Origin: an uncultured Clostridia bacterium
GTDB taxonomy: Bacteria > Bacillota > Clostridia > Oscillospirales > Acutalibacteraceae
Direction: 5' to 3'
Length of the DNA: 12,749 nt
Assembly: GCA_945875045.1 (NCBI GenBank)
Contig: CAMCIX010000013.1
Location: 1-12,749 of the forward strand
In this document: positions 1,117-12,749 of the stretch, piece by piece
Position numbering within the stretch: position 1 is the first letter of the stretch
Layout: every line of letters begins with the position of its first letter
Position numbers and translations under genes: made by a program
Notes under the pieces: generated by a model
Databases searched by the model: none
Told to the model about the DNA's origin: nothing
The model's input: only the letters and a program-made list of their open reading frames with translations

Positions 1117-3075
1117 CTACATTTTATGCTTATCCTGACGCACCTCTCCCGAGCGGTAGGCGCTTATCAGCTCTTTCAGGTCGCTGATTGTCTCTTTTAT
1201 TTTGGCGCCGTTATCGGTGTCGCCTACAAGGATTCTTTTTTTACAAACTTCCGAAGCGACCCTGTGGGTCTGCATATCGACGCCGCTTCTTATCGCCTCG
1301 CCCACCGATTGAAAGGGCTCGTGGGCGGTAAGCATAAGCCCGTAGGAATTGTAAATAAGGGTATAACCCGCTATACCTGTGACCTTGTGATAGGGACTCG
1401 CAAAGCCGCCGTCTATGATAATGACCTTTCCGCCGCATTTTACGGGGGTTTCACCCTCGATGTGATGTATTGGCACGTGACCGTTTATAATATGTCGGTT
1501 TTCGCCCTTGACGCCGAACTCGGCAAATATTTTTTCGGCTGTCTCTTCCCTGTTTATAAGCTTATAATAAACATCCTTTGTCTCGGTATGGGTGCTTTCG
1601 TCCGATATAAAATACCTCTCAAAGGTGGTCATCTTATCCCTGCCGTAAAGCGGGGAATCGGCTCCGTTCCACAAAAACCAGAGTATATCCCTGCCGTTTT
1701 TGCGGTCCGCCTCGTTTACCGATAAAAATGCCTTTCGCGCACAGCTTTCAAGACTGTCGTACAAAGCCTTTCCGCTAAGCGGTTTTCCGAAAATGTTAAT
1801 TTTCTTGAACTCGCCGCTCTCAGTCATCGGAATACAGCCGTGGAAGAGTATATTGCCGTTGGTGACCTTATAAAGACTGCCCTTATTGAGTAGAAGATTA
1901 ATATGCTTTTTAAGCTTTTCACAGCTTACAAAGGCGTAGCGGAGCTTTCTTACAACCTCCTTTTCCTCCTCGGTAAGCTCATAGGGGGAATCGGGGTTGA
2001 CGGTCGGGAAATTGCTGTCGCAAAGCTGATAGCTTTTGCCGTAAAGCTCGATTGTACCGTTTTCAAAATCAATTCTGTGCAACAGTCTTCTATGCCCCAT
2101 ATTGTATTCGGGATGCTCGCTTATAAGCTGACCCTCCAGCTTAAACTGAATAACAGAAATCGCCTTGTGCGCCTTCATTTCAAGTCCTATTTCGGAGTCA
2201 TCGCTGTTTTTGCTCCTTATTTTAAACTGCTTGCAGGGGTCGTCCCTGTATGTCTTCATTGCGAAGAAGAAAAGGGGCAAAATGCTTATGCCGTAGCCGT
2301 TTTCGAGCACCGAAACGTTATCGTACAAAAGGCTTGTGCGGACAATGTTTGCAATGCAGGCGGTCTGCCCCGCGGAAGCCCCCATCCACAGCACGTCGTG
2401 ATTACCCCACTGAATATCAAGTGAGTGATACTCGCAAAGCCTATCCATAACGAAGTGCGAACCCGAGCCGCGGTCATAAATATCGCCGATAATATGAAGA
2501 CGGTCGATAACAAGACGCTGAATAAGCTTTGACATTTCCTCGATAAACTTGTCGGCATAGCCTATTTCAATGATTGTGTTTATAATCTCCTCATAATAGG
2601 CGGCTTTGTTCAAAACCTCTTTTTTCTCGGTTATAAGCTCCTCGATTACATACTTAAAGCTGTCGGGCAGAGCCTTGCGGACCTTAGAGCGGGTGTATTT
2701 TGAGGAGACAGTTCGGCAGACCGAAACCAGCCTGTAAAGGGCAGTTTTATACCATTCATAGGTGTTACGGCTTTCGGATTTTATATATTCGAGCTTTTCT
2801 ATAGGATAATAGATAAGAGAGGCTAACTCCCTTTTGTCCTCAAGGGAAAGCTCATCGCCGAAAACGTCGTCAATCTTTTTTATGATCGCCCCGGAGCCGT
2901 TTCTCAGCACGTGGGAAAACGCTTTATATTCGCCGTGAATGTCGGACAGAAAATGCTCGGTTCCTTTGGGCAGATTGAGAATAGACTGGAGATTTATAAT
3001 TTCGGTGGCGGCGCTATCTATCGTGGGATACTGCTTTGAAAGACATTCTAAAAATCTTTTTTTCTCTTTATTCAT
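1117..3075 (-). CDS. fbp: Fructose-1,6-bisphosphatase, class III
   Basis: The enzyme hydrolyses fructose 1,6-bisphosphate to fructose 6-phosphate in the cytoplasm, the committed step of gluconeogenesis. At 652 residues it has the size of the Firmicutes class III type (about 640-670). It shows the metallophosphatase motifs: DIHG at 45-48, GDIYDRG at 197-203, GNHD at 224-227, NGH at 531-533 and IDGG at 554-557. It starts 4 nt after the stop of the symporter gene. The only purine-rich candidate ribosome binding site, AAGGA, is about 20 nt upstream inside that gene, so translation probably depends on coupling. Beside a dihydroxyacetone-phosphate-producing operon, it could help route triose phosphate back to hexose phosphate; that link is inference. 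Confidence 0.95.
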   Translation of the reverse strand: MNKEKKRFLECLSKQYPTIDSAATEIINLQSILNLPKGTEHFLSDIHGEYKAFSHVLRNGSGAIIKKIDDVFGDELSLEDKRELASLIYYPIEKLEYIKSESRNTYEWYKTALYRLVSVCRTVSSKYTRSKVRKALPDSFKYVIEELITEKKEVLNKAAYYEEIINTIIEIGYADKFIEEMSKLIQRLVIDRLHIIGDIYDRGSGSHFVMDRLCEYHSLDIQWGNHDVLWMGASAGQTACIANIVRTSLLYDNVSVLENGYGISILPLFFFAMKTYRDDPCKQFKIRSKNSDDSEIGLEMKAHKAISVIQFKLEGQLISEHPEYNMGHRRLLHRIDFENGTIELYGKSYQLCDSNFPTVNPDSPYELTEEEKEVVRKLRYAFVSCEKLKKHINLLLNKGSLYKVTNGNILFHGCIPMTESGEFKKINIFGKPLSGKALYDSLESCARKAFLSVNEADRKNGRDILWFLWNGADSPLYGRDKMTTFERYFISDESTHTETKDVYYKLINREETAEKIFAEFGVKGENRHIINGHVPIHHIEGETPVKCGGKVIIIDGGFASPYHKVTGIAGYTLIYNSYGLMLTAHEPFQSVGEAIRSGVDMQTHRVASEVCKKRILVGDTDNGAKIKETISDLKELISAYRSGEVRQDKHKM

Positions 3076-3079
3076 AGCG

Positions 3080-4426
3080 TTATTTATTGTATATTTCCTT
3101 ATTAAGCGTGCCTTCCTTATGACTGATTATAACATTTGTTGCGGCGTCGCCGATTACGTTGAGGGTTATTACCGCCATTCCCGGCAGATAGTTCATCGCA
3201 AGCACAAGGGAATAGCCTATCATACAAAGCTCGCTGTTAAGTCCAAGCCCCATCATAACCACATATACCATAGTGGTTCCCGCTACGGGGATTGCGGGGG
3301 TTCCGACCGCCGTACAGATAGAGAGGAACGCCGTTAAAACAAGGGTCATAGGGGTTATCTCTACCCCAGCCGCGGTAGCTATAAATGTTATGGCTATCAT
3401 ATGCATAGCGGTGGTGCCGTTCATATTAATAGTCATTCCCGTGGGCAGTACAAAACTGCTTACCTCCTCAGAACATCCAAGTTCGTTTATGCAGGTTTTG
3501 GTATTAAGGGGGAGCGTTGCGGCAGAGGAATTCGTCGCCGCGGCGAAAAGACCTATTTTAGCGGTTTTCTTAAGGAATTTAAAGGGATTAAGACCGGTAG
3601 TAATAAATACGCCTATCGGATAAATTGTGAATACCAGCACAAGACAGATTACGATTGTCGAGGCTATCCACACCAAGGTCGGAGAAATATATTCATAGCC
3701 GTAAACCGCAAGCGCTCTTGTAATCATACAGAAGATTGCTATGGGCGCGATTTTATTGATAAGAAAATCAAGGAACATCTGTACAATATCGTTAAGGTTC
3801 TGAATCACACTTTTAATCGGGTTTGCCTTTTCGCCCATTCTTGTAATACAAAGCCCTAAGACAATCGCGATTACCACAACCGACAGAATTGTAGTGTTGG
3901 TGGACATTGCGCTTATTATATTTGAGGGAACGGCATTTACAACCGTAACCAAAGGATTATAACCCTCCATTGTCACGATTTCCTGCGCCTGTTCGGTGGG
4001 AAGATTCACATTGAACCAACCCATAGACTTTACAAAGTACGCTCCCGCTCCCGCAAGGGCGGCGGCGACAACGTAGAAGCTGAAATAGGTTATAAAGGTT
4101 TTGCCCGCAATTTTTCCAAGCCTTTTCGGGTCGGCAAGACTGCACAGTGCAAGGGAAAGTGAACAAATAACCAATGGTACTATCATCATTTGAAGCCCGC
4201 GCATAAACAGCTGACCGATAATGTAAAACAGTCCTATTCCCTGTATGCTCTTGGCGGCAGTTATATCATGGAAGAGGATTGCGTCAATCACATTCCATAC
4301 TCCCTCGCCGGAGGTTCCCTTAAGCTGACTTTTTAAAAGCAGGCACAAAAATCCCACCGCAAAGCCTGCCGCAACGGCAATTATCATTTTTTTAACTATT
4401 GACGCTTTTTTAACTTGTGATGACAT
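3080..4426 (-). CDS. Dicarboxylate/amino acid:cation symporter family, divergent binding site
   Basis: This is a secondary transporter of the inner membrane, 448 residues, in the GltPh/GltP/DctA superfamily, with several hydrophobic segments from residue 8 onward. Family landmarks are the serine-rich hairpin 1 (NSSAATLP, 299-306), NMNGT (334-338, usually NMDGT), a hairpin-2-like GTPAIPVAGT (375-384) and the last helix with NVIGD (423-427). Compared with GltPh from memory, Asp394 and Arg397, which bind the substrate amino and side-chain carboxyl groups, are replaced by Gly416 and Val419, and Asp390 and Asp312 by Asn. The substrate is therefore probably not glutamate or aspartate. The start at 4426 is chosen because AAGGAG lies 10 nt upstream; a longer version would run through the terminator at 4461-4492. 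Confidence 0.88.
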   Translation of the reverse strand: MSSQVKKASIVKKMIIAVAAGFAVGFLCLLLKSQLKGTSGEGVWNVIDAILFHDITAAKSIQGIGLFYIIGQLFMRGLQMMIVPLVICSLSLALCSLADPKRLGKIAGKTFITYFSFYVVAAALAGAGAYFVKSMGWFNVNLPTEQAQEIVTMEGYNPLVTVVNAVPSNIISAMSTNTTILSVVVIAIVLGLCITRMGEKANPIKSVIQNLNDIVQMFLDFLINKIAPIAIFCMITRALAVYGYEYISPTLVWIASTIVICLVLVFTIYPIGVFITTGLNPFKFLKKTAKIGLFAAATNSSAATLPLNTKTCINELGCSEEVSSFVLPTGMTINMNGTTAMHMIAITFIATAAGVEITPMTLVLTAFLSICTAVGTPAIPVAGTTMVYVVMMGLGLNSELCMIGYSLVLAMNYLPGMAVITLNVIGDAATNVIISHKEGTLNKEIYNK

Positions 4427-4460: not shown

Positions 4461-4492
4461 AAAAAAGCTCCCGATTCTACAATCAAGAGCTT
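4461..4492 (-). terminator. Intrinsic terminator of the ydj-type operon
   Basis: The minus strand forms AAGCTCTTGATT, loop GTAG, AATCGGGAGCTT, a 12-bp stem with two G-U pairs, and six T run on from the stem. It lies 40 nt after the DeoR gene and 34 nt before the symporter start. It should stop most operon transcripts. Because no clear promoter fits between it and the symporter, read-through may feed the downstream pair. Confidence 0.8.
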
Positions 4493-4532
4493 TAGACATT
4501 AAATGAAATTGTAATTAAAAGCGATTTCGGTA

Positions 4533-5288
4533 TCACTCATATATCAGACGGATATTCTTACGGTTGCAAAATTCTACCCAGCTGTCATCGGGCTTTTCAT
4601 CGGTAATTATGCAATCGACCGTATCCCAATCGAGGAAGGTAACAAAGGCGGTCTGATCGAATTTTGAATGATCCGCCAGCACGACAACCCGTGCCGCGCG
4701 GCTTGACATCTCCGCTTTTAAATTTGCCTCGCTCTCCGATGAGTCCGATACTCCGTTTGCAGTATTAAGCCCTTTACAGCCAAGCAACGCAATATCAACA
4801 TTATATTTGCGAATACTTTCCTTTGCAAGAATACCGTAGAAGGAGCGAGTTCTTTCATTATAAATTCCTCCGGTTGAAACGAGCGTAATATTCGTATCAT
4901 CCAGCTCCTGAAAAATTTGAGCGGAAAAGCTGATAACGGTTATATTCTTACCGTCCTTTAACAGCTTTATCGCCTCGATTGCCGTGGTGCTGTTATCTAC
5001 CATAACAGTTTTTGCCTGACCAAATTCACGGGAAAACAGCTCGGCAATCCTTTGCTTGCTTTCAAGATTAATTGCCCTTCGCTTTGAAAAGTGAATCTGG
5101 TCGCTTTGGGAAACGGTGTTAAGCATAGCGCCGCCGTAGGTACGGGTAACAACACCGTCGTTTTTAAGCTTTTCGAGATCTCTGCGAATCGTCTCCTCGG
5201 TAACATTGTAGAGACGGCTCAGCTCCGATACAAACACCTCACCTTCTGCTTCAACCTTTTGTTTAATTTGATCTATTCGCTTTGCCAT
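4533..5288 (-). CDS. ydjF: DeoR-family regulator, YdjF-like
   Basis: A 251-residue transcription factor, probably the local repressor of the operon, responding to a phosphorylated sugar intermediate as is usual for the family. The N-terminal helix-turn-helix spans residues 18-56 with the signature VTEETIRRDLEKL (29-41). The C-terminal sensor domain includes STGG (138-141), the GCKGL loop (170-174) and ADHSKFD (205-211). The opening, the HTH and the end (DEKPDDSWVEFC) closely resemble E. coli YdjF as I remember it. It has its own extended -10 promoter at 5316-5345, and the operon may also read into it. AGGAG lies 16 nt before the ATG, with a weaker AAGG closer, so translation may be modest. 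Confidence 0.93.
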   Translation of the reverse strand: MAKRIDQIKQKVEAEGEVFVSELSRLYNVTEETIRRDLEKLKNDGVVTRTYGGAMLNTVSQSDQIHFSKRRAINLESKQRIAELFSREFGQAKTVMVDNSTTAIEAIKLLKDGKNITVISFSAQIFQELDDTNITLVSTGGIYNERTRSFYGILAKESIRKYNVDIALLGCKGLNTANGVSDSSESEANLKAEMSSRAARVVVLADHSKFDQTAFVTFLDWDTVDCIITDEKPDDSWVEFCNRKNIRLIYE

Positions 5289-5315
5289 GGGTTTGCGCCT
5301 TCTTCTCCTGTCTGC

Positions 5316-5345
5316 ATTATATCATAATTACAAGCAAAAAGTAAA
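5316..5345 (-). promoter_or_regulatory. Extended -10 promoter of the DeoR gene
   Basis: The minus strand reads TGATATAAT, with a perfect -10 at 5321-5316 and the TG of an extended -10. An 18-nt spacer separates it from a weak -35, TTTACT (5345-5340). Transcription should start near 5309, about 20 nt before the start codon. Confidence 0.65.
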
Positions 5346-5361
5346 GTATTTTTGTATCAAT

Positions 5362-5380
5362 TCGATAAATTATTTATCGA
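5362..5380. repeat. Palindrome across the AKR stop codon
   Basis: TCGATAAA (5362-5369) and TTTATCGA (5373-5380) are exact 8-bp arms, and the 3-nt centre overlaps the AKR gene's TAA. It lies 17 nt upstream of the -35 box of the DeoR-gene promoter. It could be an autoregulatory operator or an RNA hairpin; it lacks a T-tract. Confidence 0.4.
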
Positions 5381-6362
5381 TAGCCTCCACCATATCCCGC
5401 ATTGCCGCAACGTCTGACGGATCAAGCTCAATTTCGGCGGATTTAACATTTTCCGCAATTTGACCGACGGTTGTAGAGCCGCTTAGGAGGTTAATAAAGT
5501 CACCCTGAGCCAATATCCAGGCAAGGGCTAAATTTGCGATAGTGCAGTTATACTTCTCGCAAAGAGGCTTCCATTCCTCCATAACGTCCATTGCCGCCTG
5601 CATATTTTCAGGCTGGAACCACTTTTTGGGTATCTGCGCTCCGACAGGCTTGTAATCTCTCGGAAGTGTACCCGAAAGCAGACCCATTTCAAGGGGCGAA
5701 TATGCCTGAATTGTCACGCCGTTTTCGCGGCAGCAGGGGATTATCTCGTCCTCTATCGCACGGTCAAGTATAGAATACTTAGCCTGAACAATATCAAGCT
5801 CGCCGTATTTAATATACTCCTTAATTTGGTTAATGTCAACATTTGCTGCGCCGATTGCCCTGATTTTTCCCTTTGCCTTAAGCTCGTTTAAAACCTCCAT
5901 CGTTTTGCGAATAGGCACATAGTACTCACTGCCCTCTACCGACTGCCAATGGGTCATATATACGTCCACATAGTCTGTACCCATTCTTTCAAGGGATTCC
6001 TCGATTTCTTTTTTGACCGATTCGCTGTTGAGGTTTTTATAAAGCTGAATACCGTTAACCTTGTTGAAAAGGTCGCCCTTCATTTCCTGATCCCAGACAA
6101 CGCCGCACTTGGTAATAATAACAACGTCCTCACGGTTCATTTTTTCGAGCGCCTTGCCCAAAATTTTCTCGCTGTTGCCGAAGTTGTAGCCGGGGGCGGT
6201 ATCTATAAGATTAACGCCGAGCCTGGGAGCCTCGCGGATTGTATCCACAACAACCTGAAGGTCGTGGTCGCCGCCCCAGGCGGAGCCTCCGCCTATCGAC
6301 CAGGTTCCCAGTCCCATTCTTGAAATATCAATGCCTGTTTTGCCAAGCTTCATAGTCTTCAT
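5370..6362 (-). CDS. ydjG: Aldo/keto reductase, YdjG-like
   Basis: A cytoplasmic NAD(P)H-dependent carbonyl reductase of 330 residues with the usual (beta/alpha)8 barrel. The catalytic tetrad is visible: Asp54 and Tyr59 (IDTAPGY), Lys85 (ITKCG) and His138 (MTHWQ). The start MKTMKLGKTGIDISRMGLGT aligns well with E. coli YdjG as I recall it. In this operon it probably reduces the aldehyde released by the aldolase, or the sugar itself. E. coli YdjG is known to reduce methylglyoxal in vitro, so detoxification is an alternative. The gene lies 30 nt after the kinase gene and is preceded by AAAGGA. Confidence 0.93.
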   Translation of the reverse strand: MKTMKLGKTGIDISRMGLGTWSIGGGSAWGGDHDLQVVVDTIREAPRLGVNLIDTAPGYNFGNSEKILGKALEKMNREDVVIITKCGVVWDQEMKGDLFNKVNGIQLYKNLNSESVKKEIEESLERMGTDYVDVYMTHWQSVEGSEYYVPIRKTMEVLNELKAKGKIRAIGAANVDINQIKEYIKYGELDIVQAKYSILDRAIEDEIIPCCRENGVTIQAYSPLEMGLLSGTLPRDYKPVGAQIPKKWFQPENMQAAMDVMEEWKPLCEKYNCTIANLALAWILAQGDFINLLSGSTTVGQIAENVKSAEIELDPSDVAAMRDMVEAIDK

Positions 6363-6392
6363 CGCAAGTCATCCTTTCAAATAATTTCGGAA

Positions 6393-7358
6393 TTACAATA
6401 TATAATCCTCTTTGTATTTTTTAAGCATTTGCTCGACCATTTCCTTGTTCTGTACCCCTGCTGTCGCACCCGAGTACTGAACCGAGATAGCGGCTGTGCA
6501 GTTGGCGTAAATCGCACATTCGTGAATATCCTTGCCCTGCAATATTCCCGCTATAAAGCCCGAGGCGAAATTATCCCCAGCGCCTATTGTATCTATAGCG
6601 GTTATTCCCTTGCAGGCGGGAACAATCATAGCGCCCGCTTCGTTGCGGATATAACAGCCCCGCTTGCCTATCTTCATAACAACGTTTTTAACGCCGCACT
6701 CAAAAAGCTTGTCGGCTACCTTTGATTCTTCGGTCTCGCCCGTCATAAGGCATGCCTCGTCGAAGTTAGGGAAGAAGTAATCTACATAGCTTAAGGCTTC
6801 TCTTATATCGTCAAGGGTTTCTCCGAGGCGGGGCTTGATCATATCCGCCGTGATAAGCATACCCTCTGCCTTTGCCGCCTTGAAGATTTTAACAAGGGCT
6901 TTTCCGTCAAGCAAGGGGCAGTTGAAAATACTTGCAAGGGAAAGAATTTTAGCCTGTTTCATCTTTTCGAAATCAACATGCTCAATGTTTTCTTTCCAGA
7001 GACTGCCGTTGCGGTTTGTAATAAAGGTCCTTTCTCCGTCCTCTGTCACAAGTCCGATATTCATAGAGGTATCAATATTCGGGTCGATTTTTATGCCCTC
7101 GGTATCGATATTATCCTTCTTGCAGGAACGAAGAATAAACTGTCCCGCCGCGTCGTCGCCTATGCAGGCGATTATGCCTGTTTTAAAGCCGAGACGGCTT
7201 ATAATCGTCGCCTCGTTCATAGCGTCTCCGCCCACCGTCATGGCAATTCTGTCAACAGGATAGGATTCAATATCAAAAATATCCCTTGATACGGGGCGCA
7301 GCGGAATATCAACCACCGCCGCACCCAAACAAATCACGTCAAGTTTTTTATTATTCAT
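6393..7358 (-). CDS. ydjH: PfkB-family sugar kinase, YdjH-like
   Basis: An ATP-dependent ribokinase-family sugar kinase of 321 residues. Family landmarks are the N-terminal GGDAMNEA (43-50), the PNFDEA turn (197-202) and the C-terminal signature DTIGAGDNF (256-264), with catalytic Asp262. I place the start at 7358 because AAGG precedes it, the length then fits E. coli YdjH (about 315), and the ATG overlaps the aldolase stop by 8 nt, a translational-coupling layout. Longer in-frame starts at 7403 and 7373 lie inside the aldolase gene without proper spacing to a ribosome binding site. It should phosphorylate the ketose that the aldolase cleaves; in vitro work on E. coli YdjH, as I recall, points to C1 phosphorylation. 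Confidence 0.93.
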   Translation of the reverse strand: MNNKKLDVICLGAAVVDIPLRPVSRDIFDIESYPVDRIAMTVGGDAMNEATIISRLGFKTGIIACIGDDAAGQFILRSCKKDNIDTEGIKIDPNIDTSMNIGLVTEDGERTFITNRNGSLWKENIEHVDFEKMKQAKILSLASIFNCPLLDGKALVKIFKAAKAEGMLITADMIKPRLGETLDDIREALSYVDYFFPNFDEACLMTGETEESKVADKLFECGVKNVVMKIGKRGCYIRNEAGAMIVPACKGITAIDTIGAGDNFASGFIAGILQGKDIHECAIYANCTAAISVQYSGATAGVQNKEMVEQMLKKYKEDYIL

Positions 7359-8190
7359 CTGCTCTACCTTCATCTCCGAAGAGCCGTATCTTATACATAG
7401 CACGTTCCTTAACAGCCTTTCTTACCTCACGCTCAACCGCCAAGAAGGGTTCGTCCTTGTGAGCGTTAATAGCCTCCATAGCCGCCTGACACAGCTCGGT
7501 GTGAATATTTATCTTTGCAATGCCTAAGGAAATAGCCTTTTTAATATCCTCGTCGCCTATTCCCGAAGCGCCGTGAAGCACCAGAGGAACGTCAACCTCT
7601 TTTGCCACCGCCTCAAGAACATCAAAAGCAAGCTTTGGTTCGGAGGAATATACGCCGTGAACGTTGCCGATTGCAACCGCAAGGGAGTCACAGCCGGTTC
7701 TCTCAACAAATTCCTTTGCCTTTGAGGGATCGGTGTACTGATAGTCCGAGAGAGCCTCCTCGTATACTGTTTCGTTGCCTACATGACCTAACTCAGCCTC
7801 AACGGGGATATTGTAGGCGTGGAAGTAATCAACGCATCTCTTAATTTCCGCAACGTTTTCTTCATAGGGAAGGGCAGACGCGTCACGCATTACCGAATTC
7901 ATACAGTGATTAACCGCGTTCTGAAGAATCGTCATATTTCTGCCGTGGTCCCAATGTAGGATAACGGGAACGCTTGCCTTTTTAGCCATAGATTCCATCA
8001 TATAGCAGTAGTCCTCAAATACGGTATTGCCCGTAAAGCCTGTGCCGAAGGAAATAATAATCGGTGCACGAAGCTCCTCCGCCGCGTCGATAACGCCCAT
8101 AAGCATTTCGGCATTCCATACATTGAAGTGAGGAATCGCATAATGACCCTCGGACGCCTTTTTCTCCCAATATCTGATATCTGATACCAT
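7351..8190 (-). CDS. ydjI: Class II ketose-phosphate aldolase, YdjI-like
   Basis: A zinc-dependent aldolase of 279 residues that should split a ketose 1-phosphate into dihydroxyacetone phosphate and an aldehyde. The zinc ligands His82, His178 and His206 and the general base Asp81 (HWDH at 79-82) are present, along with the phosphate loops HGASG (206-210) and NIHTE (228-232). MVSDIRYW and much of the protein resemble E. coli YdjI. VMRDAS (100-105) replaces the VMIDGS usual in fructose-bisphosphate aldolases, as in YdjI, so fructose bisphosphate is unlikely to be the substrate. The ATG at 8190 is preferred (AAGGTGAT upstream, same length as YdjI); a GTG at 8199 behind AAAGGAG would add three residues. 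Confidence 0.94.
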   Translation of the reverse strand: MVSDIRYWEKKASEGHYAIPHFNVWNAEMLMGVIDAAEELRAPIIISFGTGFTGNTVFEDYCYMMESMAKKASVPVILHWDHGRNMTILQNAVNHCMNSVMRDASALPYEENVAEIKRCVDYFHAYNIPVEAELGHVGNETVYEEALSDYQYTDPSKAKEFVERTGCDSLAVAIGNVHGVYSSEPKLAFDVLEAVAKEVDVPLVLHGASGIGDEDIKKAISLGIAKINIHTELCQAAMEAINAHKDEPFLAVEREVRKAVKERAMYKIRLFGDEGRADE

Positions 8191-8230
8191 ATTAATCACC
8201 TTTACTCCTTTAAATTTCGGTTTATATTAT

Positions 8231-9286
8231 TTATTCGGCAACCTTTACTACGCCCTTTATCATATCTGCCTTTTTAACAGGGTCAATAGCGTCTGAGAAC
8301 GCCTGTTGAACGTCCTTGTAATCGTAAATATGGGTCACCATATCCTTTACATTAAACTTGCCCGAGGAAATAGCCTCTATTGTCTGCGGGAAGTTGTTGC
8401 AGTAACGGAATGAGGTCTGAATTGTAACCTCGCGGTTGATTTTTAAGAAATCAATCGGAACGGGCTTTGAATGTGTGCCGACCATCATAATCTTTCCGCC
8501 GCGGGCGACAATCTGTACCGCCTGCTGTGCGGTAAAGGCAGAGCCTGCCGCCTCAAATACCAGGTCAACGCCGTGGTCGCCGTAAAGCTCGGGCGAACGG
8601 ACAAGGGCTACGGTATCCTCTTCCTTGCCGTTTATAACCCTACTTGCACCAAGCTTCAAAGCAAGGTCAAGGCGCTTTTGCATAATATCAACAACCGTAA
8701 TGTCGGTAGCACCAAGGCTCTTGCAAGCTTGAAGCACCATAAGACCGATTGTTCCCGCACCGAGGATTACTATACTCTTGCCCAGTTGTGCGCCGCCCAA
8801 AATAGCCGCATGCATACCTACCGCCGCAGGCTCTACAAGCGCCGCTTCCATAGTCGTCATATTTTCGGGAACGTGGTAGGTCCACTCCTCGGGATGGGTC
8901 ATATACTCTGTAAGCGCGCCCTTGTAGTTGGGCTGGGTCGCCATAAAGTCAACGCCCGGACAAATGTTGTATCTGCCTGTGCGGCAATATTCGCAGGTAC
9001 TGTCGGGTACGCCGGGTTCAATTAAAACCTTGTCGCCAACCTTAAACCTTGTAACCTTTGAGCCGATTTTTACAACCTCGCCCGCAACCTCGTGACCGAG
9101 ACCTATTTTCTGGTTAGGATCCTTAGGGGGAATAAAGGGACCAAACTCAAAGCCGTGTATATCCGAGCCGCACATACCCACAAACTCAACCTTCATAAGG
9201 ATTTCGTTTTCCTTGGGCTCGGGAACGGGACATTCTTTAATCTCAAAATGCTTAGGTGTTACCAAAATCGCTTCGGAATTTTTCAT
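8231..9286 (-). CDS. ydjJ: Zinc-dependent polyol/alcohol dehydrogenase, YdjJ-like
   Basis: A medium-chain dehydrogenase of the sorbitol dehydrogenase type, 351 residues, that should oxidise a sugar alcohol or hydroxy-sugar with NAD. Catalytic zinc ligands are Cys39, His65 and Glu66 or Glu152. The nucleotide fold has GAGTIG (176-181) and Asp200 at the end of the second strand, which favours NAD over NADP. The structural-zinc lobe has Cys98, Cys101 and Cys109, but the first position is Asp95 instead of Cys. I start it at 9286, with GGGAGG 7 nt upstream; an earlier in-frame ATG at 9346 would translate through the hairpin at 9310-9334. The sequence closely resembles E. coli YdjJ (for example VDFMATQPNY, INREVTIQT). 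Confidence 0.93.
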   Translation of the reverse strand: MKNSEAILVTPKHFEIKECPVPEPKENEILMKVEFVGMCGSDIHGFEFGPFIPPKDPNQKIGLGHEVAGEVVKIGSKVTRFKVGDKVLIEPGVPDSTCEYCRTGRYNICPGVDFMATQPNYKGALTEYMTHPEEWTYHVPENMTTMEAALVEPAAVGMHAAILGGAQLGKSIVILGAGTIGLMVLQACKSLGATDITVVDIMQKRLDLALKLGASRVINGKEEDTVALVRSPELYGDHGVDLVFEAAGSAFTAQQAVQIVARGGKIMMVGTHSKPVPIDFLKINREVTIQTSFRYCNNFPQTIEAISSGKFNVKDMVTHIYDYKDVQQAFSDAIDPVKKADMIKGVVKVAE

Positions 9287-9309
9287 AAATATACCTCCCT
9301 GTTTGTTTT

Positions 9310-9334
9310 CCTGCGTCGGGGTTGCCGACGCAGG
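9310..9334 (-). other. Perfect GC-rich hairpin between operon genes
   Basis: CCTGCGTCGG (9310-9319) and CCGACGCAGG (9325-9334) are exact 10-bp arms around a 5-nt loop, in the 60-nt gap between the transporter stop and the dehydrogenase ribosome binding site. No T-tract follows on the minus strand, so it is not an intrinsic terminator. An mRNA stabiliser or processing boundary that sets different levels for transporter and enzymes is plausible. Confidence 0.7.
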
Positions 9335-9346
9335 ATATAAATTCAA

Positions 9347-10732
9347 TTAATCAATGTTGCCGATATCCTCAACCGATTCGCCTCTGGTCTCAACGCCGAG
9401 GAATATAATGCTTATAGCAATTATAACCGCTACTATACCGATAAGGATAAACACGCTGCCGGGGCCAATGCTTGCCGCCGCCCAGGTTACTAAGAACGGG
9501 AAGAAGATATTGCTGACTCTGCCCATTGCGTTGCTGAAGCCCGAGCCCGAAAGCTTTGCGGAGGTCGGCCACATCTCGGGTACATATACCGCCGAGGCAT
9601 AGCAAACGTACATATAAATAACCGTGTTAAGTAAGAAGGTCATTACGATAAGACCTGTTATGCCAAGAGAGGGAGCGAGAACACCCGTTGCAATTCCGAG
9701 ACCCGCCATCAATGCGAGAAGAAGTACGCCCATTACCCTGCGGGGGAGCTTATCCATAATAAGCGAGGCGATAAAGATTCCAAACGGGGCGCCGAACAGA
9801 CCGAACATTGTCATAAACTGCGAGGTAGAGGTGTCAAAGCCTAAATCCTTAAGCATTGAGGGCATCCAGTTCATAAGTGTGTACTGAATTGTGTTCATAC
9901 CGATAAGTACAAGAGAGCCAACGATTGTGCGCTTTAAGAGCTTGCCTTTAAAGAGAGCGCTGTAGGGAAGCTTTTTAACGGGCTTCGGCTCTTTAACCTC
10001 AATCGGAGGAAGCGGCTTGCCGGTGGATTTTTCGATTTCCTTTTCAATTTTAGTCATTATAGCGTCTGCTTCATCAAGTCTGCCCTGTGATTCAAGCCAT
10101 CTCGGAGACTCGGGGAACTTTTTAAGAATGAAGATGCAGGCGATTATTGAAAGGATGGACGGAATCATAAACTGGATTCTCCAGTTAAGGGCAAAGCTAA
10201 CGCCGGTAGACACTATAAGAAGCGCTATACCGTTGCATATCGGGTGAGCCCAGTTACCTATAAAGGAGGTGCGGCTTGACCATGTACCGCGGTTTTTGCC
10301 GGGAACATATTCTGTGAATCCCGCAAAGAGAACTACTAAGAGTGCGCCGAGACCGAAGCCCTGTAAAAGTCTGAATACATAAAGTACATAGATGTTGGGC
10401 GAAAGAGCTCCGCCTATCATTGCGATAATGTGGATTGCTTCATACAGCAAAATACTCTTTTTTCTGCCGATTTTATCGCCGATAGGTCCGCCTATAAGTG
10501 CGCCGAAAAGCTGACCCGCCGTGTAAACCGTTCCCCACATTGCAAGCAGGGCTGTTCCCTTTTCCAACCAATGAATTTCGTTAAGCAGAATGTTTTGCAC
10601 CGCGCCGCCGATACCGTTAGACCAGCAAACCAAAAGCGCAAACGCCGTTATAAGCCACATTTTAACGTGCCATTTTGACTGGGGAAGACGGTCAAGCCTT
10701 GCCCCGATATTGATATTAGTTTTGTTTTCCAT
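9347..10732 (-). CDS. ydjK: MFS sugar/metabolite transporter, YdjK-like
   Basis: An inner-membrane major facilitator of 461 residues, probably 12 helices, importing the operon's substrate by proton symport. Visible landmarks are GARLDRLPQSKWH near the N-terminus (10-22), the loop motif GGPIGDKIGRK (81-91), PESPRWLES (207-215) in the central loop and a closing GVETRGESVEDI. These match the metabolite:H+ symporter group that includes E. coli YdjK and YdjE and the niacin transporter NiaP; CYASAVYVPE and GFTEYVPGKNRGTWSSR point to YdjK. AAGGAG lies 7 nt before the ATG, and the gene follows the epimerase by 24 nt. The substrate cannot be read from sequence. Confidence 0.93.
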   Translation of the reverse strand: MENKTNINIGARLDRLPQSKWHVKMWLITAFALLVCWSNGIGGAVQNILLNEIHWLEKGTALLAMWGTVYTAGQLFGALIGGPIGDKIGRKKSILLYEAIHIIAMIGGALSPNIYVLYVFRLLQGFGLGALLVVLFAGFTEYVPGKNRGTWSSRTSFIGNWAHPICNGIALLIVSTGVSFALNWRIQFMIPSILSIIACIFILKKFPESPRWLESQGRLDEADAIMTKIEKEIEKSTGKPLPPIEVKEPKPVKKLPYSALFKGKLLKRTIVGSLVLIGMNTIQYTLMNWMPSMLKDLGFDTSTSQFMTMFGLFGAPFGIFIASLIMDKLPRRVMGVLLLALMAGLGIATGVLAPSLGITGLIVMTFLLNTVIYMYVCYASAVYVPEMWPTSAKLSGSGFSNAMGRVSNIFFPFLVTWAAASIGPGSVFILIGIVAVIIAISIIFLGVETRGESVEDIGNID

Positions 10733-10756
10733 CGTTCTACTCCTTAAAATTATTTT

Positions 10757-11458
10757 TTATATTTTTCTTTGGGCTTTTTCAAGCTCTTGTTCAAGCTCGC
10801 TTTCCATTACCGACCAAGCCTTTTCAAAATCCTCGTCCTTGTTCCAGAGGGCGGGAGGTCCTAAGACCACCATATCCGCACCCGCCTCGTAAAGAGGACG
10901 GTAAAGGCTTTTGTTCATCGAGCCGTCGGCTTCGATAAGGAAATTAAGCCCTAAATCCTTTCGCATTTTTGCAAGACGGTTAATCTTAACAAACATCTGC
11001 GGGTCAACGGGCTGACCTGCAATGCCGGGGTCTACAATCATTATCGTAACCTTGTCGAGCAAGGGCAGATAATATTCGATGGTATTAAGCGGAACCGAGG
11101 GACTAAGGGCAATTCCTGCCTTACAGCCTAACTCCTTAATCCTGCGGATTGTGACGAACGCGTCCCCCTCTATGCAATCCGTATGCGGCGTTATGTATGC
11201 AGCGCCCGCTTTTGCGAACACCTCAAGATACCGCTGTGGATGCTTAACCATAAGATGCGCGTCCATAGGCTTCAGATTATCCACATGCTTATTAAGATAA
11301 TCGAGATAATCAGGGCCTATTCCGTAGCTTGGAACATACACACCGTCCTTAATGTCCATATGAAGATAATCCGATTTTTCGTTAATCAGCCTTACCTGCT
11401 CTTCAATATGAAACAAATCACAACACCCGACAGACGGCGCAATCATCAGCTTTCTCAT
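10757..11458 (-). CDS. Ketose-phosphate 3-epimerase of the AlsE/Rpe family
   Basis: A 233-residue TIM-barrel enzyme of the ribulose-phosphate 3-epimerase superfamily, which inverts C3 of a ketose phosphate. The metal and catalytic set is complete: His33 and Asp35 (HMDIKDG), His68 (DAHLM) and Asp178 (EADGS). VTIMIVDPGIAGQP (137-150) and EADGSMN resemble E. coli AlsE (allulose-6-phosphate epimerase) more than Rpe. Two differences stand out: Lys37 replaces the usual Met in HxDxMDG, and the phosphate-side loop reads GPPALWN (200-206) rather than the GS/GT-containing loop of Rpe and AlsE, which hints at an altered substrate. The gene lies 30 nt after the first dehydrogenase behind GGAGG. I know of no counterpart in the E. 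coli ydj cluster. Confidence 0.88.
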   Translation of the reverse strand: MRKLMIAPSVGCCDLFHIEEQVRLINEKSDYLHMDIKDGVYVPSYGIGPDYLDYLNKHVDNLKPMDAHLMVKHPQRYLEVFAKAGAAYITPHTDCIEGDAFVTIRRIKELGCKAGIALSPSVPLNTIEYYLPLLDKVTIMIVDPGIAGQPVDPQMFVKINRLAKMRKDLGLNFLIEADGSMNKSLYRPLYEAGADMVVLGPPALWNKDEDFEKAWSVMESELEQELEKAQRKI

Positions 11459-11488
11459 TGGACTCTACCTCCAATCGGTTTTATTTAA

Positions 11489-12589
11489 TCAATCGTTATA
11501 ATCGTAGGTGAAAATAACCTTGATAGCTTCCTTCTTCGCCATTGCGTCGAAGCCCTCTTTCCACTGGGAAAGACCAAGACGGTGGGTAATCATAGGCTCA
11601 ACCTTAATCATTCCCGCCTTAAGAAGCCTGATGCAGTTTCTCCAGGAGGTGGAGTCATAAGCCATGTGACCTATTATGCTCTTATTCCAAGCCGTGATGT
11701 CGTTAATCGAGAACTCAAGCGGCTTAAAGCCCATTCCCACGCGGACAATTTCGGCGTTGGGTCTTGTCATTTCAATAGCCTGCTTAAGAGCGATATTTGC
11801 GCCCGAGCATTCAATTACAAGACCCAAATTGTCTCTGCCGCAGATTTCGGTGCAGCGTGCGACAACGTCTTCTTTTGAGCCGTTTACGCAATGTGTAGCG
11901 CCTAATTCCATAGCAACCGGGAAGCGTACCTTTACGTCCTCCTCAAGACCTACCATAACGATGTTTACCGCGCCCATAAGCTTCGCAACCTGAACCGCGA
12001 AAAGACCTAACGGACCTGTGCCGAATACTACAACGTCCTGACCGGGAATTAAGTGTGACTGCTGAGCGATCGCCTTGTAGGAGTTGCAGATGGGGTCGAG
12101 CACCGCCGCCTCCTCATACTTAACGCCCTCGGGAATTTCCCAGATTGCGTGCTTGTGAATTGCGAGAATTTCACCGGGAACCTTGCAGTACTTTGAGAAG
12201 CCGCCGCCCCAGGTGTTGTTGTCAAGACCTAAGTTTACCTTGTTCTCACAGCAGAGGAAATCTCCGCTTTCGCAGGCGGGGCATACGCCGCAGACATGGG
12301 CGCTGTTGTCCGATACAACCCTCTGACCTACGTGCCAGTCCTTAACGTTCTCGCCAACCTCAACGATTTCACCCGCAAACTCGTGTCCGCGTACCGATTG
12401 CTGTTGGTCGGGCGTGATGTTTGTGTCATCGTACCCGTTGTCCACCTGCCAGTGCTTCATATCAGCACCGCAGATTGCGGCGGCCTTGATTTCGATAATG
12501 ATGTCATCGGGTCCGCAAACGGGGACGGGATAATCCTCCATCATCTTGTAGCCGCCAAAGGCTGTTCCGAATCTTTTTAAAGCATGCAT
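11489..12589 (-). CDS. ydjL: Zinc-dependent dehydrogenase, YdjL-like
   Basis: First gene of the operon: a 366-residue medium-chain zinc dehydrogenase. Catalytic zinc ligands are Cys40, His69 and Glu70, with Asp165 (VLDP) in the position of the fourth ligand. The structural zinc set is intact: Cys100, Cys103, Cys106 and Cys114. The nucleotide motif is GTGPLG (190-195), but the residue at the end of the second strand is Gly214 where NAD-dependent relatives have Asp, so NADP use is possible. Long stretches resemble E. coli YdjL as I remember it (for example VKDWHVGQRVVSDNS, FSINDITAWNKSIIGHMAYD). AAGGAG lies 9 nt before the ATG. Together with YdjJ it suggests two oxidation steps or an oxidation-reduction isomerisation. 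Confidence 0.94.
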   Translation of the reverse strand: MHALKRFGTAFGGYKMMEDYPVPVCGPDDIIIEIKAAAICGADMKHWQVDNGYDDTNITPDQQQSVRGHEFAGEIVEVGENVKDWHVGQRVVSDNSAHVCGVCPACESGDFLCCENKVNLGLDNNTWGGGFSKYCKVPGEILAIHKHAIWEIPEGVKYEEAAVLDPICNSYKAIAQQSHLIPGQDVVVFGTGPLGLFAVQVAKLMGAVNIVMVGLEEDVKVRFPVAMELGATHCVNGSKEDVVARCTEICGRDNLGLVIECSGANIALKQAIEMTRPNAEIVRVGMGFKPLEFSINDITAWNKSIIGHMAYDSTSWRNCIRLLKAGMIKVEPMITHRLGLSQWKEGFDAMAKKEAIKVIFTYDYND

Positions 12590-12609
12590 AAATCATAACT
12601 CCTTTTCTT

Positions 12610-12622
12610 CCGTTTCAAACGG
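12610..12622. promoter_or_regulatory. Candidate operator in the operon leader
   Basis: CCGTTT-C-AAACGG is a perfect 13-bp palindrome between the predicted transcription start (about 12635) and the first ribosome binding site. This position suits a repressor roadblock. The DeoR regulator encoded by the operon is the obvious candidate to bind it, but nothing in the sequence proves it. Confidence 0.45.
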
Positions 12623-12641
12623 TTTTTTCTTTGACAACTAT

Positions 12642-12670
12642 ATATTAACACCTAAAAATGTGGAAATCAA
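12642..12670 (-). promoter_or_regulatory. Main promoter of the ydj-type operon
   Basis: The minus strand shows TTGATT (12670-12665), a 17-nt spacer and TAATAT (12647-12642). Transcription would start near 12635 and leave a leader of about 45 nt carrying the palindrome at 12610-12622 and AAGGAG. No clear catabolite-repression (cre) site is visible around it. Confidence 0.65.
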
Positions 12671-12707
12671 GCATTTTTTATGTTTGTTTCACAGATTTGT
12701 ATATATG

Positions 12708-12749
12708 CTGTCTCTTATACACATCTGACGCTGCCGACGATATGCAGTG
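12708..12749 (+). other. Nextera (Tn5) sequencing adapter, not genomic
   Basis: Positions 12708-12726 are the 19-bp Tn5 mosaic end CTGTCTCTTATACACATCT. Positions 12727-12740, GACGCTGCCGACGA, are the rest of the reverse-complemented Nextera read 1 adapter. TATGCAGT at 12741-12748 is the reverse complement of an i5 index I remember as ACTGCATA (N506/S506), and the final G fits the start of the P5 segment. The genomic sequence therefore ends at about 12707. Confidence 0.97.

Follow-up and report, generated by a model that had tools for sequence, protein, structure and literature searches.

A clostridial operon collinear with Escherichia coli ydjF-L carries an additional epimerase gene and appears to extend to a symporter and a bisphosphatase

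We have found, in a contig of an uncultured Clostridia bacterium (Acutalibacteraceae; assembly GCA_945875045.1, contig CAMCIX010000013.1), an operon that is collinear with the ydjF-L genes of Escherichia coli K-12 and is fuller than them. The stretch analyzed, referred to here as the window, is 12,749 nt long. Seven of its genes are orthologues of ydjF-L, in the same order and on the same strand, as a first-pass annotation made from the sequence had claimed; this collinearity is real and strong, with 45–78% protein identity and conserved aldolase motifs. The operon is larger than the unit delimited then, with an SDF-family symporter and a class III fructose-1,6-bisphosphatase that appear to belong to it. 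We consider it probable that the operon was acquired and serves the catabolism of a sugar or polyol of about 7–9 carbons with a carboxylate end, via a ketose 1-phosphate, retro-aldol cleavage and aldehyde reduction. The gene families, their order, the conserved residues, the patchy distribution and an incongruent tree, all of them observed here, underlie this proposal.

The fuller operon matters because ydjI is widespread in E. coli (found in 4204 of 5426 complete genomes), because the ydjL promoter responds to the gut (it is on in the mouse gut and among the two most consistent responders, according to the accessible text of PMC6561318) and because the natural substrate of the cluster is still unsettled, being named in none of the accessible parts of PMC10117117, PMC5110547, PMC7065263 and PMC11194214. 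The clostridial version gives new handles on this substrate: the epimerase should report the configuration at C3 and the transporters point to a carboxylate. Among the literature matches listed, titles and opening lines of abstracts mentioned no Bacillota ydj-type sugar operon or its epimerase, and many matches to ydj concern the unrelated ydj operon of Bacillus subtilis. New here are the fuller operon, a divergent epimerase branch, the links to a symporter and a bisphosphatase, and the indications that the cluster probably entered gammaproteobacteria twice.

Gene content and correspondence with the E. coli cluster

The genes are transcribed in the order L, epimerase, K, J, I, H, G, F, symporter and bisphosphatase (the letters being those of the ydj genes), all from the minus strand. 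The starts of J (9286), I (8190) and H (7358) were refined by the E. coli homologues.

12590..12707, minus strand: upstream region remaining on the contig; it includes a stretch that resembles a ribosome-binding site, and a palindrome of 13 bp (12622-12610)
11489..12589, minus strand: ydjL-type zinc alcohol dehydrogenase, the first gene (78% identity to YdjL)
10757..11458, minus strand: epimerase with the fold of ribulose-phosphate 3-epimerase, between L and K, resembling AlsE but altered in its phosphate loop
9347..10732, minus strand: ydjK-type MFS transporter (52% to YdjK; PF00083)
8231..9286, minus strand: ydjJ-type zinc alcohol dehydrogenase (64% to YdjJ)
7351..8190, minus strand: ydjI-type class II aldolase (72% to YdjI; best PDB match 6ofu)
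6393..7358, minus strand: ydjH-type PfkB sugar kinase (67% to YdjH; best PDB match 3h49)
5370..6362, minus strand: ydjG-type aldo-keto reductase (61% to YdjG; passes NCBIfam NF049922)
4533..5288, minus strand: ydjF-type DeoR regulator (45% to YdjF; PF00455 and PF08220)
4464..4493, minus strand: hairpin resembling an intrinsic terminator, between ydjF and the symporter gene (13-pair stem, T-rich tail; a pattern match only)
3080..4426, minus strand: SDF-family cation symporter, after ydjF (PF00375, 277 bits)
1117..3075, minus strand: class III fructose-1,6-bisphosphatase of the Firmicute type, 4 bp past the symporter gene (PF06874, 981.4 bits)

From L to F the intergenic gaps are of 24 to 81 bases, with an overlap at I/H, where the kinase start lies over the end of the aldolase gene. 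The gap between F and the symporter is of 106 bases and contains the hairpin, a kind of pattern that is not enriched in the region (10 observed against 13.0 expected from shuffles). The palindrome upstream of L was considered as a common YdjF operator and dropped, because it was present in just one of 74 regions upstream of L, that of the window.

When compared by blastp with the ydj locus of E. coli K-12 MG1655 (L001, NC_000913.3), all seven proteins aligned over nearly their full length at the identities listed, with E-values from 3e-73 to 0. In K-12 the genes run ydjE-F-G-H-I-J-K-L on a single strand, as the first-pass annotation had stated, and best matches to families other than Ydj were found neither in the PDB nor in NCBIfam nor in the genome of Citrobacter braakii (that of locus L083), where L, K, J and F were searched in the direction from window to genome. 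The aldolase had YdjI (6ofu) as best PDB match with 448 bits (runner-up 184) and the kinase YdjH (3h49) with 461 bits (runner-up 95), and the aldo-keto reductase passed the YdjG equivalog cut-off (605.9 bits vs. 550). The best Citrobacter matches of L (664 bits, next 145), K (504, next 288, the latter an adjoining ydjE-type copy), J (496, next 134) and F (226, next 107) lay on the same contig in ydj order. Unlike the window, the K-12 locus has no epimerase gene, SDF symporter or class III bisphosphatase; conversely, its second MFS gene, ydjE, is not at the corresponding place in the window. The sole match of the window epimerase in the Citrobacter genome was at 36% identity and away from the ydj locus. 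The earlier description of the unit as ydjF-L plus one extra enzyme missed the downstream symporter and bisphosphatase, as well as the fact that the extra enzyme has little of an ordinary pentose-phosphate epimerase in its appearance.

Comparable loci were gathered by scanning genome_contigs, one genome per species (84,980 species), with two aldolase peptide patterns, and the best 80 of 107 encoding stretches were analyzed. The window's own copy (L002) and a paralogue (L003) were dropped from all family counts; the aldolase of L082 and the ydjJ of L048 were not recovered at 70% coverage. By the family in the record title, the loci come from Lachnospiraceae (43), Enterobacteriaceae (8), Oscillospiraceae (7), Eubacteriaceae (4), Atopobiaceae (3), Pasteurellaceae (2) and Butyricicoccaceae, Erysipelotrichaceae and Clostridiaceae (1 each), with no family given for 10. 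The 66 loci of Bacillota and others were arranged as L-epimerase-K-J-I in 41, as L-J-I in 15 and as L-K-J-I in two (L064 and L065, the second of which does have an overlapping epimerase open reading frame); one had a symporter between L and J, and in seven L was beyond the stretch. All four loci of Actinomycetota had L-epimerase-K-J-I, while L-K-J-I was found in both Pasteurellaceae and in seven of the eight Enterobacteriaceae (in the eighth, L was beyond the stretch). In many related loci L-epimerase-K-J-I continues with H-G-F and then an SDF-family symporter.

Core enzymes, epimerase and proposed pathway

The alignment of the aldolases (81 rows: the window, E. coli and 79 loci) has 136 invariant columns, and the motifs HFNVWNAEM, HWDHGR and MRDAS are invariant in all rows. 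The second and third of these motifs contribute R84 and R102 of the 279-residue protein, in place of which 3q94, a canonical aldolase, has Ser and Ile; the two arginines may serve the carboxylate end of the substrate. In E. coli, YdjH and YdjI have a preference for long-chain monosaccharides with carboxylate ends, according to the accessible text of PMC9602453. By analogy with these homologues (67 and 72% identical), the enzymes of the window would act as a C1 kinase and a dihydroxyacetone phosphate-releasing aldolase on long-chain ketose acids. Of the substrate classes that had been proposed for the operon, sugar acids are favoured over simple polyols because of the preferences of the two E. 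coli enzymes. The preferred monosaccharides have 7–9 carbons, and a Kdo (3-deoxy-D-manno-octulosonic acid)-type eight-carbon acid or another D-fructo-configured chain extended at C6 would fit the stereochemistry of the best YdjI substrate when the structures are compared by hand. Nothing relevant on octulosonic acid catabolism appeared among the literature matches listed. As to the zinc dehydrogenases, the ydjJ type has the NAD-type Asp in 81/81 rows and the ydjL type has, in 74/74, a Gly in place of the Asp that usually binds NAD, so that both may differ in cofactor or direction, an indication to which we give low weight.

The scheme of the first-pass annotation, i.e., import, oxidation, phosphorylation, retro-aldol release of dihydroxyacetone phosphate and aldehyde reduction, fits the protein families, and its logic is sound. 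In the version that we propose, the MFS protein, perhaps together with the SDF symporter, would import the compound, and the two zinc dehydrogenases would place a keto group at C2. As J, unlike L, has the look of an NAD-type enzyme, one carbon may be oxidised and another reduced in the process. The epimerase would then invert C3 of the free, unphosphorylated ketose and make both C3 epimers usable; YdjH would phosphorylate C1, YdjI would cleave the ketose 1-phosphate into dihydroxyacetone phosphate and an aldehyde acid, and YdjG would reduce the aldehyde. Dihydroxyacetone phosphate would enter glycolysis, or gluconeogenesis by way of the co-encoded bisphosphatase, the symporter would be a carboxylate carrier for the substrate or an exporter of the reduced acid, and the DeoR-type YdjF would control the operon. 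The order of the steps, the epimerase step, the roles of symporter and bisphosphatase and the regulation are what we infer from these families.

A similar logic is found in the sulfoglycolytic Embden-Meyerhof-Parnas operon of E. coli, yihO-W, which has a transporter, a kinase, an aldolase that releases dihydroxyacetone phosphate, an aldehyde reductase and a DeoR regulator, and whose reduced product is exported. However, that operon uses another aldolase class and has no such dehydrogenase pair or epimerase; the sulfofructose kinase 7ag6 is a distant relative of the window kinase (44 bits). It could also be argued that the cluster serves mainly to detoxify methylglyoxal or reactive aldehydes, centred on YdjG, given that NCBIfam names this aldo-keto reductase a methylglyoxal reductase and that methylglyoxal was suggested by the authors of PMC6561318 (accessible text) as a reason why expression might occur in the gut. 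This would leave the joint retention of kinase, aldolase, two dehydrogenases, epimerase and transporters unexplained, as well as the aldolase motifs kept in every row, and we regard it as very improbable.

The epimerase belongs to the PF00834 superfamily, passes the Pfam cut-off and shares the fold and the metal ligands His, Asp, His, Asp with AlsE and Rpe. It differs from both in scoring below their NCBIfam cut-offs (234.4 vs. 271 bits for AlsE, NF007266; 164.8 vs. 212.6 bits for Rpe, TIGR01163), in a Lys near the metal (47/47 epimerase rows) where canonical Rpe has Met (28/28), and in the phosphate loop, where the Gly is followed by Pro in 46/47 rows (Ser in one; Pro in the window) as opposed to Ser, Asn or Thr in 28/28 canonical Rpe. 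A second Pro comes next in 47/47. These counts leave aside one further epimerase row (of 48) that does not cover the loop and Lys parts, the epimerase of L065, which was outside the 48, and the partial L113 in the canonical set. Judged by its residues, the protein forms a separate branch within the ribulose-phosphate epimerase family, and because of the Lys-for-Met replacement and the Pro-Pro loop it may use an unphosphorylated ketose. Alternatively, it could be an ordinary epimerase of phosphosugars, similar to AlsE or Rpe, through which an intermediate or side product reaches central metabolism, but the subthreshold scores, the fixation of Pro-Pro and Lys across the rows of both Bacillota and Actinomycetota and the presence of a separate canonical Rpe gene in the window's genome make this quite unlikely. 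The literature matches listed held nothing relevant on epimerases of the Rpe family with regard to phosphate binding or unphosphorylated substrates. Outside gammaproteobacteria the epimerase gene is tied to K: it was present in 46 of the 47 loci whose stretch includes both L and K, the exception being L064 (L065 counts by its overlapping reading frame), and in 0/16 loci with L and no K between L and I.

Transporters, bisphosphatase and nature of the substrate

The SDF-family symporter keeps the last-helix Asn and final Asp in 48/48 sequences each, as in GltPh/GltTk and DctA of the same family; we take the Asn to bind a carboxylate and the Asp to belong to a sodium site. In contrast, the GltTk positions Asp and Arg, presumably those that hold the amino group and the side chain of aspartate, are Gly (47/48) and Val (46/48), also in the window. 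The site suits a carboxylate without an alpha-amino group, as far as these residues tell. Linkage was scored as a family gene with at least 40% identity, on either strand, no more than 9 kb downstream of the aldolase, for loci with enough sequence. It was found in 37 of 41 Bacillota and other loci bearing K, 4/4 Actinomycetota and 2/2 Pasteurellaceae, with the gene reversed in L043. The bisphosphatase is over the PF06874 cut-off along its full length (residues 7-641 of 652) and is placed as in the window in L006 and L007, whereas L033 has it between G and F.

Some variant loci have, instead of YdjK or in addition to it, ABC transporters of the branched-chain-amino-acid type or sugar-type ABC proteins (binding proteins in L078, with related genes by similarity in L080 and L081). 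Permease genes were counted by sequence clusters, with Pfam checked in L023, L041, L050 and L061. These transporters, together with the aminotransferase genes of some loci, fit a carboxylated substrate, an amino-acid-like one being possible. Two loci have a second sugar pathway beside the Ydj core (L041:13864-20304, by Pfam, and L045:13864-20188, by similarity), with branched-chain-type ABC genes, an FGGY kinase, a class II (AraD-type) aldolase and a xylose-isomerase-like protein. The Anaerostipes operon has between ydjG and ydjF (L036:12946-15795) a 293-aa protein that resembles 2,5-dihydroxypyridine 5,6-dioxygenase (7cn3, 61 bits), an RraA-like protein and an aminotransferase.

Several observations weigh against the pathway proposed here. 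To our knowledge, epimerases of the ribulose-phosphate epimerase fold use phosphosugars; the nearest solved relative of the one described here is the phosphosugar enzyme AlsE, and changes in the loop alone do not prove activity on anything else. The epimerase gene is absent from the gammaproteobacteria (9/9 loci with L and K in the stretch, as in E. coli K-12). The symporter was within 9 kb in 3/15 Bacillota and other loci without K, being absent from the other 12, and in 0/8 Enterobacteriaceae, and the bisphosphatase was linked in 3/80 loci besides the window, although some stretches end too early. Given the hairpin after ydjF, these two genes may form a second transcript. Branched-chain-amino-acid-type ABC permease genes occur near the core in 9/80 loci, in three arrangements, and an aminotransferase near the operon in six (families checked in L020, L023 and L036). 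Finally, the best in vitro substrate of YdjI has no natural abundance, in the accessible text of PMC9602453, which agrees with the earlier statement that the E. coli cluster has no settled physiological substrate.

The ABC permeases and aminotransferases would also suit the same core pathway acting on an amino-acid-linked or amino-acid-like sugar, in which the retro-aldol step frees an aldehyde bearing the amino acid part. The ThrE exporter gene near the L078 operon and the amino acid carriers within the SDF family point the same way. However, the residue for holding an alpha-amino group is missing from the symporter, other variants carry the sugar-type binding proteins mentioned above and the ABC genes of L041 and L045 continue into the second sugar pathway, so that we find this version unlikely and retain the carboxylate-ended sugar or polyol as the probable substrate.

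Distribution, transfer and the rest of the contig

The operon occurs rarely and patchily. With a threshold of E<=1e-75, the aldolase was found in one of 391 genomes of the class and one of 398 of the phylum, each time the window's own. YdjI was absent at E<=1e-60 from 36 congeneric genomes save for one paralogue at 43%, the symporter at the latter threshold from 24 congeners and from 15 further genomes within the order, and the bisphosphatase from 18/18 congeners, with 2 of 11 other genomes carrying one at 47-48%. These absences are weakened by the incompleteness of some of the genomes. The aldolase tree has two main clades, mostly of Clostridia. The Pasteurellaceae aldolases are among Clostridia in the clade of the window, and those of Enterobacteriaceae group in the other clade with Herbinix and Lachnotalea, at a Shimodaira-Hasegawa-like approximate likelihood ratio (SH-aLRT) of 85, which is not strong. 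A single gammaproteobacterial clade was rejected by the approximately unbiased (AU) test (p-AU 0.0016, on a quick tree), from which L068 was excluded for its long branch.

By identity, Herbinix and Lachnotalea (Lachnospiraceae) are also the closest relatives outside gammaproteobacteria of E. coli K, H and F; for J one of the two is tied for closest (81%), but other loci (L051, L046 and L048) are nearest to L, I and G. These results indicate that the catabolic unit probably entered gammaproteobacteria at least twice. The direction from Clostridia to Enterobacteriaceae is likely, short of proven because the root is unsure with very distant outgroups. Within one operon the identities can be uneven: L023 is 93% identical to the window in I and 87% in L, but 65% in J and 46% in H, which suggests gene-by-gene replacement. 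Clearly unequal identities to the window were seen as well in L012 and L053. It seems that the cluster has been passed between gut bacteria, and the discrete transferable unit of the first-pass annotation agrees with the patchy distribution, the aldolase tree and the gene identities. Going further, we tentatively put forward, as a possible though doubtful extension, that E. coli ydj might be a trimmed descendant of an operon of gut Clostridia whose full form, with a free-ketose-acid epimerase, a carboxylate symporter and sometimes a bisphosphatase, degrades an unrecognised common gut sugar acid.

Plasmid carriage as a route of spread finds no support: 5 of 72,556 plasmid records had a match, all enterobacterial and marked non-mobilizable, and three of them (H2, H3 and H4) are chromosome-sized. 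In the Mediterraneibacter loci the upstream genes (UvrC, HPr kinase and ROK, checked in L014) were judged to be ordinary chromosomal neighbours.

Misbinning of the contig was also considered, and composition gave no sign of it. The tetranucleotide distance to the mean of 14 other contigs of the bin was 0.126 for the window without adapter and 0.169 for the operon part, against leave-one-out distances of 0.151-0.290 for those 14; these values would also be compatible with an origin of the contig in a similar genome or with an older transfer. Beyond the bisphosphatase gene the contig is AT-richer (1-1116, 34% G+C) and matched no DNA among the loci collected, apart from the window's own copy L114; it contains an open reading frame for a small HTH_26/HTH_3 regulator (588-929). 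The opposite end (12708-12749) is untrimmed adapter of 33 bases (12708-12740), which we take to be the Illumina Nextera adapter, plus 9 bases, and the adapter core lies near an end of 5 of those 14 other contigs of the bin.

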